A DNA stretch of 64,000 nt from Methylomagnum ishizawai (GTDB lineage: Bacteria > Pseudomonadota > Gammaproteobacteria > Methylococcales > Methylococcaceae): the NCBI RefSeq assembly GCF_900155475.1, contig NZ_FXAM01000001.1, positions 1,103,501-1,167,500 of the forward strand, read 5' to 3'. Each line of letters starts with the position of its first letter. Positions within the stretch are counted from its first letter, which is position 1. The translations under genes were made by a program, and so were the position numbers. Shown here piece by piece: positions 8,356 to 11,597 of the stretch. The notes under the pieces are model-generated. The model searched no databases. It had not been told where the DNA came from and saw only the letters and a list, made by a program, of their open reading frames with translations.

Positions 8356-8860
8356 CGGGAATATCCTGGACGAGGGATGCGGCGCGGTCGCGCCGCCAGG
8401 GCAGGATAACCAGCCTGGGGTCGCCGGAGCAACCGGGGTGGGACGCGGGCTTGGGGAAGATTAGTTTGCGCGTTCAACCGGGCGGGCGGAACGGCTTTTG
8501 ATCTTGTCCGGGCATCCGGTCCCGGCGGGGGCGCGATGGGGGTGGTCACGCCTACGCGGCTTGTTTAAGCGAAGTGATCCGGTCACTCGAAATAGCCATC
8601 CAGGCGGGGCGAGTCCGTGATAGCCTTACGGTTTCCTGCGTTCGGATCGCTGGCTTTCCCTATGGGTCGATAGGGGGGCGCGTCTGGCGCGGGGGAATTG
8701 GATACCGGAGTAATCGCTTTTGATTTACAGATGTCGCTGGCTGATTCGTTGCGCGTGTTGATGTGTACACCCCATAAATATATCGCTTTAGCGTGGCCAT
8801 GGCAACTCTATATCGAATCAAGCGCCCCGGATTTTCTTGCAAACAACGTTATTAAGTCAT
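8356..8860. other. Intergenic region between divergent genes
   Basis: About 500 bp with no convincing gene; short frames here have no coding signal. It holds a GC-rich hairpin (GCGGCGCG-GT-CGCGCCGC, 8379-8396) just upstream of the membrane-protein gene. A 13-base palindrome, GTGATCCGGTCAC (8574-8586), could be an operator for the HTH regulator downstream. An AT-rich patch (CCCATAAATATATC, 8771-8784) with TTGATG at 8758 may be that regulator's promoter. None of these is certain. Confidence 0.35.
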
Positions 8861-9394
8861 ATGGCTGAACTCGAATCCCAACAAAATAGTATCAGGGAAG
8901 CGCCTAAACACTATGGCGTGGAACAGGAGCCCACCGCCGTCCCAGGGCCGGAACTGGCGGTGGACGCCGAATTCATCGAGCGTATGAGGGCTTGCGCCGA
9001 CTTGGTGGGTAGTGTCAATGCGCTGGCCCGCAAGTCCGGGCTATCGCAATCCGGGATACGCCGCTACTTTACCGGCGGCGACCCGACCCGGCGGGTGTTG
9101 ATCGCCATCGCCGAGGCGGCCGGGGTCAATGTGTTGTGGCTGGTCAGTGGCGAAGGGACGATGCTGAGGGAGTCCCCGGCGGGGTCGGTCGCTCTGGGCG
9201 AGACCTTGGCCCTGGCACCCGAGATATTGCAGCTCAGCCTCGAGACCATCGAGGAAGCCCTGCTGAAATCGGGCCGCAAGATGTCCCCGGCCAAGAAGGC
9301 GGAATTGGCGATGGCGGTTTATGAACTCTACCGCCGCGGCGATGGCCGGATCGACAAGTCGGCGGTGTTGCGCTTGGTGAAATTGGCGACCTGA
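8861..9394 (+). CDS. HTH (XRE/phage-repressor-like) transcriptional regulator
   Basis: A 177-residue protein from the ATG at 8861. A TTG eight codons upstream is possible, but no ribosome binding site separates them. Residues about 40-95 form a lambda-repressor-like helix-turn-helix (LVGSVNALARKSGLSQSGIR, then RVLIAIAEAAGVNVLWLVSG), the layout of Cro/CI-type N-terminal domains where GVNVLWLVSGEG closes the fold. No S24 peptidase or other ligand domain follows; the C-terminal 80 residues are helical (LQLSLETIEEALL, KKAELAMAVYELYRRGDGR), perhaps for dimerisation. It stands alone between two minus-strand genes. The target is unknown; autoregulation at the palindrome 8574-8586 is only a suggestion. 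Confidence 0.75.
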   Translation: MAELESQQNSIREAPKHYGVEQEPTAVPGPELAVDAEFIERMRACADLVGSVNALARKSGLSQSGIRRYFTGGDPTRRVLIAIAEAAGVNVLWLVSGEGTMLRESPAGSVALGETLALAPEILQLSLETIEEALLKSGRKMSPAKKAELAMAVYELYRRGDGRIDKSAVLRLVKLAT

Positions 9395-9473: not shown

Positions 9474-11597
9474 TTAGGGGCGGTCGCGCTGGGCGAGCAG
9501 GCTGGGCCGTCCCGGCCGCGCCCGTTCCATGAGTTCGTCGGCGGGCATCGGCGGGCCGAAGAAATAGCCCTGGATCAAGTCGCACTGGTGGCGCTTGAGG
9601 AATTCGAACTGGCCGGCGGTTTCCACGCCTTCGGCCACCACCCGGATATCCAGGCTGTGGGCCAGGGCGATGATAGCCCGCACGATGCGGGGATCGGCCT
9701 GCTGGGCGTCGATATCCTGCACGAAGGAGCGGTCGATCTTGAGATAGTCCACCGGGAACAGTTTCAGGTAGCTGAGAGAGGAGTAGCCGGTGCCGAAATC
9801 GTCGATGGACAGCGCCAAGCCCCGGCTTTTCAGGCGGCGCACGGTGTCCACCGCTTGTTGTGGATCGTGCATCATGGTCGATTCGGTGATCTCGAATTCC
9901 AGCCGGGAACGGTCGGTCCCGGTGGCTTCCAAGATGGCGTCGATGCGTTCCAACAGGTTCTTCTGGCGGAATTGATGGGGCGAGAGGTTCACCGCCACCG
10001 CCATGTCCAGCCCGGCGTCGCGCCATTGCGCGATCTGTAGGCATACCGTCCGCAGCAGCCATTCGCCGATTTCCACGATCAGCCCGGATTCCTCCGCCAG
10101 GGGGATGAACTGCCCCGGCGAGACCAGGCCGTGGCCGGGCCTGCGCCAGCGCAGCAGGGCTTCCGCCGCGTAGCAACGGCCACTGTCCACTTCCACCTTG
10201 GGTTGGTAATAGACCTCCAGCTCGCCGCGTTCCAGGGCGTAGCGCAGGCCCGTCTCCAGCGCCAGGTTCTTTTCCCCATCCTTGCGGCGCGGCAGTTCCT
10301 TGTAGAACTGGTATTGGTTGCGCCCGAGTTCCTTGGCCCGGCCCAGGGCGGCGTCGGCCATCTTCAGCAATTGCTCGGGGTCGGCGTGGTCGGTGGGATA
10401 GAGGCTGATGCCGATGCTGGCGGTCACGAACAAGGTGTGGCCGTCGATCACCCAGGCTTCCTTCATGGCCTCGCCGATGGCGGTGGCGGCGGCCCCGGCC
10501 AGGGCCGGATGGGACAATCCCGGCAGGATGAGGGCGAATTCGTCGTCGCCCAGCCGGGCCAGGATATCCTGGTCCCGCAGCGATTGGCGCAGGCGTCCGG
10601 CCACGGCGGCCAGCACCCGGTCGCCGAAGGCGTGGCCCTGGTCGTCGTTGATGTTCTTGAAGCGGTCCAGGTCCAGGTGGAACACCGCGAAACCCTGGTC
10701 GTCCGCCAGGGTTCCGCGCAGCCGCTCCATGAACAGGGCGCGGTTCGGCAATTCGGTCACGGGGTCGAAATAGGCGAGGCGGCGGATGGTTGCCTCGGAC
10801 TGCTTCAACTCGCTGATATCGTGGGACATCACGACATAGTGGATCAACCGGCCCCGCTCGTCCCGGATCGGGGCCACGTATTGCAGGCACCAATAGGGAA
10901 CGCCGTTCTTGTTTTGCTCGCGGACCTCGCCCTCCCAGGTCTCGCCGCGCTTGAGCTTGTCCCACAAGGTCTGCCGCGCCGCCGGATCGACCCGGTCGGG
11001 ATACCAGATCGAAGCCCGGCGTCCCATCATTTCCTGGCGGCCGAAGCCCGAGAGCTTGCTGAAGGCCGGGTTGCAGTATTCGATCAGGCCGTCCCGGTCG
11101 GTGATCAGCACCATGCTCGGGCTATGCTCGACCGCCAGGGAGAGCTTGCGCATCTCGCCGGCGGTTTCCTGGTGTTCTTGCAAGGCGGTTTCCAGGGCTT
11201 GGTTGGTGGCCAGCAGTTGCCTGGAATCGGGCAGGTCCATGAGTCCGGCCAGGACCGGCCGGAGCCGGAGGGCGGCGACCAGGGCGGCCAGGGCGGCCGA
11301 CACCTTCAAGGCCAGGGCCGGTACGCCGTCGACGGGGCCGGGGGTCCATAGGTGCAGCAGGTGGTAGCTGCCGCAGAGCAGGGCGAAACCGCCGAGCAGG
11401 AGGGGCGGTCCGCGGCGGGGGAGGTCGTTGCGGTGGCGGAGGAAGGCCCAGAGCGCGAACGGGATGGCATAGAACGCCAGCGCCAGCAGGCCGTCCGCGA
11501 TCAGGTTCGGCCAAAACAATTGGGGCGGCGGAACGGGCATCTCCAACCGTGCGGGGAAGGGTGGACTCGCAAACAGCGATAACAGCGATTCAATCAT
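9474..11597 (-). CDS. Ethylene-receptor-like membrane domain + PAS + GGDEF + EAL
   Basis: A 707-residue cyclic-di-GMP enzyme. Residues about 28-115 form three hydrophobic helices resembling the ethylene-binding domain of ETR1-type receptors: LIADGLLALAFYAIPFAL (D35, F42, I45-P46) and GGFALLCGSYHLLHLW (C75, H79, the copper-ligand pair of ETR1). A coiled linker and PAS domain (about 150-262) follow. The GGDEF domain (about 270-430) has GDDEF at 350-354 in place of GGDEF, with an RxxD inhibitory site (RDQD, 341-344). The EAL domain (about 445-690) keeps AEALLRW, EITEST, SIDDFGTGYSSL, YLKIDRSF and AEGVET, so phosphodiesterase activity is expected. Sensing ethylene or copper is an inference from residue conservation. 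The start at 11597 has a weak ribosome binding site; an ATG at 11540 is an alternative. Confidence 0.88.
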   Translation of the reverse strand: MIESLLSLFASPPFPARLEMPVPPPQLFWPNLIADGLLALAFYAIPFALWAFLRHRNDLPRRGPPLLLGGFALLCGSYHLLHLWTPGPVDGVPALALKVSAALAALVAALRLRPVLAGLMDLPDSRQLLATNQALETALQEHQETAGEMRKLSLAVEHSPSMVLITDRDGLIEYCNPAFSKLSGFGRQEMMGRRASIWYPDRVDPAARQTLWDKLKRGETWEGEVREQNKNGVPYWCLQYVAPIRDERGRLIHYVVMSHDISELKQSEATIRRLAYFDPVTELPNRALFMERLRGTLADDQGFAVFHLDLDRFKNINDDQGHAFGDRVLAAVAGRLRQSLRDQDILARLGDDEFALILPGLSHPALAGAAATAIGEAMKEAWVIDGHTLFVTASIGISLYPTDHADPEQLLKMADAALGRAKELGRNQYQFYKELPRRKDGEKNLALETGLRYALERGELEVYYQPKVEVDSGRCYAAEALLRWRRPGHGLVSPGQFIPLAEESGLIVEIGEWLLRTVCLQIAQWRDAGLDMAVAVNLSPHQFRQKNLLERIDAILEATGTDRSRLEFEITESTMMHDPQQAVDTVRRLKSRGLALSIDDFGTGYSSLSYLKLFPVDYLKIDRSFVQDIDAQQADPRIVRAIIALAHSLDIRVVAEGVETAGQFEFLKRHQCDLIQGYFFGPPMPADELMERARPGRPSLLAQRDRP

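Follow-up and report, generated by a model that had tools for sequence, protein, structure and literature searches.

The gene at positions 9474..11597 (-) of the window, the 64,000-nucleotide stretch of Methylomagnum ishizawai DNA analyzed here, encodes a true ethylene-receptor-type membrane domain on a predicted cyclic-di-GMP (c-di-GMP) phosphodiesterase in a methanotroph; ethylene binding by this protein itself is doubtful. The open reading frame has an ATG start and 707 codons, and its length of 707 amino acids, its strand and its position, the last as given in an earlier note on this DNA, were confirmed exactly. A Pfam domain search bore out the PAS-GGDEF-EAL fusion described there and gave the order ETR1_N, PAS, degenerate GGDEF and EAL. 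Feature coordinates below are window positions on the (-) strand unless marked otherwise.

Domain organization and gene surroundings

The ethylene-receptor-type membrane domain (EBD) covers residues 27-120 (11238..11519). A linker helix, placed by the structure model at residues 125-139 (11181..11225), connects it to a PAS domain at about residues 149-269 (10791..11153; Pfam PAS_9, 74 bits; TIGR00229). This is followed by a GGDEF domain at residues 275-428 (10314..10775; Pfam, 142.9 bits) that is predicted to be inactive as a cyclase, and by an EAL phosphodiesterase domain at residues 451-683 (9549..10247). The gene is flanked by an HTH-like gene on one side and by glnK-amtB on the other, an arrangement shared with the congener, and glgA/glgB are also among the neighbors. 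The small HTH-like gene (window 8837-9394, +) directly adjoins the EBD gene, is conserved beside the congener ortholog (L036, 7128-7700) and found no match among the NCBIfam models.

The membrane domain belongs to the ethylene-receptor family

The membrane domain is a genuine member of the ethylene-receptor (ETR1_N) family. Pfam ETR1_N (PF25487) matched residues 27-120 with 61.1 bits (E = 1.3e-16) against a curated cut-off of 27, which is far beyond chance, and in a six-frame search of the whole genome the protein scored 65.9 bits. The same profile gave no hit in any of 14 control genomes. The AlphaFold2 model (mean pLDDT 84) consists of three long helices at residues 25-55, 63-84 and 92-120, followed by the linker helix. 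An unrelated three-helix sensor was considered and dropped, as no rival Pfam family matched residues 27-120 and no structural match stood out: the best Foldseek E-value was 1.7 and the best Z-score 7.5, both with helical bundles and not above background, although such absence is weak evidence. A search by sequence found no ETR1_N domain with a solved structure. The family assignment proposed in the earlier note is supported by the profile match, and neither of the two findings that it had named as evidence to the contrary was obtained, there being no better-matching family and the copper-binding Cys and His being present in 139 and 141 of 142 relatives, respectively.

The DNA confirmed the residues that had been listed for comparison with Arabidopsis ETR1: D35 (11493..11495; ETR1 D25), I45-P46 (11460..11465; I35-P36), C75 (11373..11375; C65) and H79 (11361..11363; H69), as well as F42 (11472..11474) at the position of Y32, with Y43 adjoining, and A72 (11382..11384) at that of I62. 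C75 and H79, the two predicted Cu(I) ligands, are found in both species. We add K98 (11304..11306), which in an ungapped alignment corresponds to ETR1 K91, the Lys partner of D25, and to K98 of AzoEtr1; the D25-K91 pair is therefore retained as D35 and K98. A Leu at the K91 position in the first profile alignment was a gap artefact.

The ethylene pocket has drifted

Seven residues are essential for ethylene binding by ETR1, and mutation of S98 has a moderate effect (PMC6586836). The window protein retains five of the seven (D25, Y32, I35, P36, I62, C65 and H69 in ETR1), with F42 and A72 deviating. The full DYIPICH set occurred in 103 of the 142 sequences retrieved, a count biased by a retrieval pattern that demanded a CG..H motif. 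Among the sequences read, no protein other than the window protein and its congener, L036, had Ala at the I62 position; of the four rows with A72 in the 142-sequence alignment, three are copies of the window gene and the fourth is L036. Losses extend beyond these two residues: of 25 columns with at least 90% conservation across 39 homologs, the window protein keeps 15 and loses 10, whereas the homologs keep 22-25. The lost positions in this lineage include the equivalent of ETR1 S98 (offset of 7, as for the Lys), which is A105 (11283..11285) here and Ser in 39 of 39 homologs.

Reduced binding of ethylene has been described for the ETR1 mutants Y32A, F61A, I62A, C65Y and H69A (PMC8879215, citing Wang et al. 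2006). The window protein has Phe rather than Ala at Y32 and keeps F71 (ETR1 F61), so that only the change at I62 matches one of the mutations tested. It is unlikely, in our judgment, that the protein is a working receptor of reasonably high ethylene affinity that controls c-di-GMP and tolerates Phe and Ala in the pocket. The equivalents of D25, I35, P36, C65, H69 and K91 are indeed kept, a methanotroph protein (L170) naturally pairs Phe with Val at the Y32 and I62 positions, and methanotrophs do suffer stress from ethylene (PMC11507031), but the diminished binding of ETR1 Y32A and I62A (PMC8879215) and the 10 of 25 conserved columns lost, against at most 3 in other homologs, speak against this. 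For the ethylene sensing suggested earlier, the receptor family and the Cu(I) ligands stand as support; the substitutions at Y32 and I62, the other conserved positions lost and the inactive-looking GGDEF domain make such sensing by this copy doubtful.

Natural variants of the pocket were also seen in other proteins. Phe at Y32, once considered unique to the window lineage, is shared by L170, whose EBD with Val at I62 represents a separate variant. In L035 and L061 the residue equivalent to Asp25 is Asn, a replacement that lowers the affinity of ETR1 about 100-fold (PMC13012798). Four EBD-GGDEF-EAL proteins from one genus of the same family (L010, L014, L015, L021) have Ser for Pro36 and CA..H for CG..H with the copper ligands kept, and L049 contains a short open frame resembling a broken EBD remnant in which Ser replaces the copper-binding Cys.

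Location and possible meaning of the drift

The drift occurred mainly in the EBD. In quick, rough trees built from 20 EBD-PAS-GGDEF-EAL proteins, the stem leading to the window lineage measured 3.16 changes per site for the EBD (4.0 with the next branch), against 0.93 for PAS, 1.23 for GGDEF and 0.85 for EAL. A 131-row tree of the EBD gave a stem of 2.22, the median end branch being 0.18. The TM1-TM2 core has been steady after the drift, with a single replacement across 56 codons when the two congeners are compared, versus 6 in 40 codons (and 2 silent changes) in the third helix (p = 0.02). Replaced and silent codons numbered 15 and 5 in GGDEF and 5 and 16 in EAL (p = 0.0017), corresponding to replacements in 15 of 154 and 5 of 233 codons (p = 0.0016); these counts are small and come from this single pair of species. 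Both species keep the Cu ligands, D35 and K98.

Since the drift lies on a single long stem, it might reflect a loss of sensing instead of its retuning. In that case the membrane domain would serve as an anchor and dimeriser without ligand sensing, with regulation through PAS or through GTP on the degenerate GGDEF domain. The very long stem branch, mostly confined to the EBD, and the poor conservation of the third helix between congeners are consistent with this. An idle anchor would, however, have no need of the Cys, His, Asp and Lys and of nearly all of the TM1-TM2 core that both species retain, even if two genomes are few and decay may have had little time to proceed. We regard such an anchor role as rather unlikely.

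The retention of copper ligands while residues of the hydrocarbon pocket drifted could also indicate that the domain senses copper itself, through its Cu loading state, instead of ethylene. This would suit a methanotroph, and the host possesses the copper-dependent particulate methane monooxygenase (pMMO). Nevertheless, the neighbors examined (the HTH-like gene, glnK-amtB and glgA/glgB) include no copper genes, and in the literature examined we found no ETR1_N protein that signals by copper occupancy, so copper sensing appears very improbable.

Predicted enzymatic output

At residues 350-354 (10536..10550) the GGDEF domain reads GDDEF in place of the GG[DE]EF active-site loop of active diguanylate cyclases, a deviation that the earlier note did not mention. 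Among the EBD-GGDEF proteins read, leaving aside L085, where the pattern left the loop unresolved, GDDEF sets the window protein and its congener apart from all others, which have GG[DE]EF. From the known role of this loop, the GGDEF half is probably inactive as a cyclase, or possibly a weak one. The EAL domain scored 264.9 bits in Pfam and its catalytic motifs are intact in the translation (E479, N537, EITES, DDFGTG, KID, EGVET and QGYFFG). With a degenerate cyclase motif and a complete set of EAL motifs, the protein is predicted to break down c-di-GMP, a biofilm signal. The nearest NCBIfam models were phosphodiesterases, with DibA first, all below their cut-offs. The EAL phosphodiesterases DibA and DosP share the PAS-GGDEF-EAL output with EAL motifs; their sensor is different and the window protein falls far below the NCBIfam cut-offs.

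Paralogs in the same genome and a proposed mechanism

The six-frame profile search revealed four ETR1_N proteins in the host genome. L005 (473 amino acids; L005:2673-4094) has the order EBD-PAS-GGDEF, a canonical GGDEF motif and all seven ETR1 residues, and L006 (549 amino acids) is an EBD-PAS-histidine kinase that also has all seven. L007 (1308 amino acids) combines the EBD with several PAS domains, a kinase, a receiver and an Hpt domain and retains six of the seven, with I35 replaced by Leu. The window protein is the least canonical of the four copies and had the lowest ETR1_N score, 65.9 bits versus 124-135 bits for the three paralogs. Since its pocket has drifted, the sister protein L005 seems the better candidate for an ethylene-to-c-di-GMP receptor. 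It is also the cleanest test protein in the host genome, while the methanotroph-wide set is the stronger lead.

The explanation we prefer, at about even confidence, is that the window protein is an inner-membrane c-di-GMP phosphodiesterase with a drifted, Cu(I)-holding sensor of the ethylene-receptor type, opposed by the canonical cyclase paralog. C75 and H79 most likely hold Cu(I) at a dimer interface. Any change that a ligand causes there would be relayed by the linker helix and PAS to EAL and alter c-di-GMP breakdown. With the drifted pocket, a weak or changed ligand preference is expected rather than the nanomolar ethylene binding of plants, and the GGDEF domain, having lost a glycine of the catalytic site, is probably regulatory or vestigial. 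L005, which has the full set of seven, would act as the cyclase working against it and be the better receptor for ethylene. The sequence analysis establishes the domain make-up, the residues, the paralogs, the degeneracy and the conservation; copper loading, the direction of the enzyme and the signal path are inferred from them.

Related architectures and known receptors

The earlier note associated the domain with histidine kinases in plants and cyanobacteria. We found that it is not confined to these groups but occurs widely among proteobacteria and in other phyla, coupled to several outputs. In a survey of EBD proteins, 142 distinct EBD frames included 85 with a histidine kinase, 30 with GGDEF and EAL and 4 with GGDEF alone; the counts are lower bounds because loci were cut at their ends, and four GGDEF frames are the window lineage or copies of it. 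Mapping GGDEF onto the EBD tree required 11 changes, at least 7 of them forced by well-supported branches. The GGDEF carriers comprise 15 methanotroph rows that cluster together, the deepest fork of this cluster being weakly supported, and a separate case in a Paucimonas-type genome. EBD-GGDEF-EAL proteins of Myxococcota and of Methylophilaceae methylotrophs (L138, L146; L081, L091, L100) apparently represent separate gains. The idea that the fusion is unique was consequently dropped, as EBD-GGDEF(-EAL) proteins form a cluster in methanotrophs and have also arisen elsewhere.

Proteins of about 700 amino acids with the same EBD-PAS-GGDEF-EAL order occur in other methanotrophs (L119 of Methylomonas sp. 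SURF-1; L151, L154-L160, L166). They resemble the window protein in length and share 47-62% identity in the EAL domain, but differ from it in having the canonical DYIPICH pocket and a canonical GGDEF motif. Because these canonical counterparts are found in other methanotroph genera, the window lineage is, by sequence comparison, a changed form of an older design.

Arabidopsis ETR1 shares the three-helix membrane domain and the equivalents of D25, I35, P36, C65, H69 and K91. It differs in Y32 and I62, which are Phe and Ala in the window protein, in the other positions lost there, and in its GAF-histidine kinase-receiver output, where the window protein has PAS-GGDEF-EAL. The proteobacterial AzoEtr1 of Azospirillum brasilense has the same numbering for D35, C75, H79 and K98 and likewise places a PAS domain behind the EBD, whereas it differs in its complete set of seven residues, its binding of ethylene and its terminal histidine kinase (PMC11819568). 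AzoEtr1 has been linked to biofilm (PMC11819568). SynEtr1 of Synechocystis PCC 6803 is also a bacterial ETR1_N receptor with a sensory domain behind the membrane domain, but has a canonical pocket and a histidine kinase output. Searches of open-access full text turned up no account of such domains in methanotrophs or fused to c-di-GMP enzymes. Other outputs, possibly including GGDEF, may be listed in reviews of ethylene receptors from outside the plants.

Ethylene-receptor domains in methanotrophs

Three pmoA-type genes are present in the host genome, two with equal scores and one more distant, supporting the suggestion that the host is a methanotroph. In its order, Methylococcales, with relatives such as Methylobacter and Methylomonas, 166 of 201 genomes have pMMO-type genes. 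ETR1_N exceeded the cut-off in 99 of these 201 genomes, compared with 9 in a sample of about 365 genomes from elsewhere in the class (Fisher p about 1e-42, shared descent ignored). In the family of G735, outside this class, 11 of 149 genomes have pMMO genes, and ETR1_N was detected in 7 of these 11 versus 20 of the 138 others (p = 6e-4), the eleven belonging to three genera and thus reflecting few independent events. ETR1_N is enriched in methanotrophs of two separate lineages, in two classes.

Methane monooxygenase (pMMO) co-oxidizes ethylene to epoxyethane, which is toxic to methanotrophs, and in soils ethylene has an inhibitory effect on the oxidation of methane (PMC11507031). The same paper describes a detoxification pathway as the response of M. 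crimeensis to ethylene and leaves receptors unmentioned. We tentatively propose, as a possibility clearly short of even, that the methanotroph guild uses ethylene-receptor domains, often on c-di-GMP enzymes, to sense ethylene, from which their methane monooxygenase would make toxic epoxyethane, and that the window protein is a retuned member opposing a canonical cyclase receptor. The bacterial ethylene receptors in the literature examined signal via histidine kinases, and a direct link to c-di-GMP would be a second output route, with a plain rationale in methanotrophs, where methane monooxygenase turns ethylene into a toxic product. Given the enrichment in two methanotroph lineages, ethylene perception by these organisms is open to direct testing, for which the pocket of the window protein and that of its canonical paralog form a natural mutant pair.
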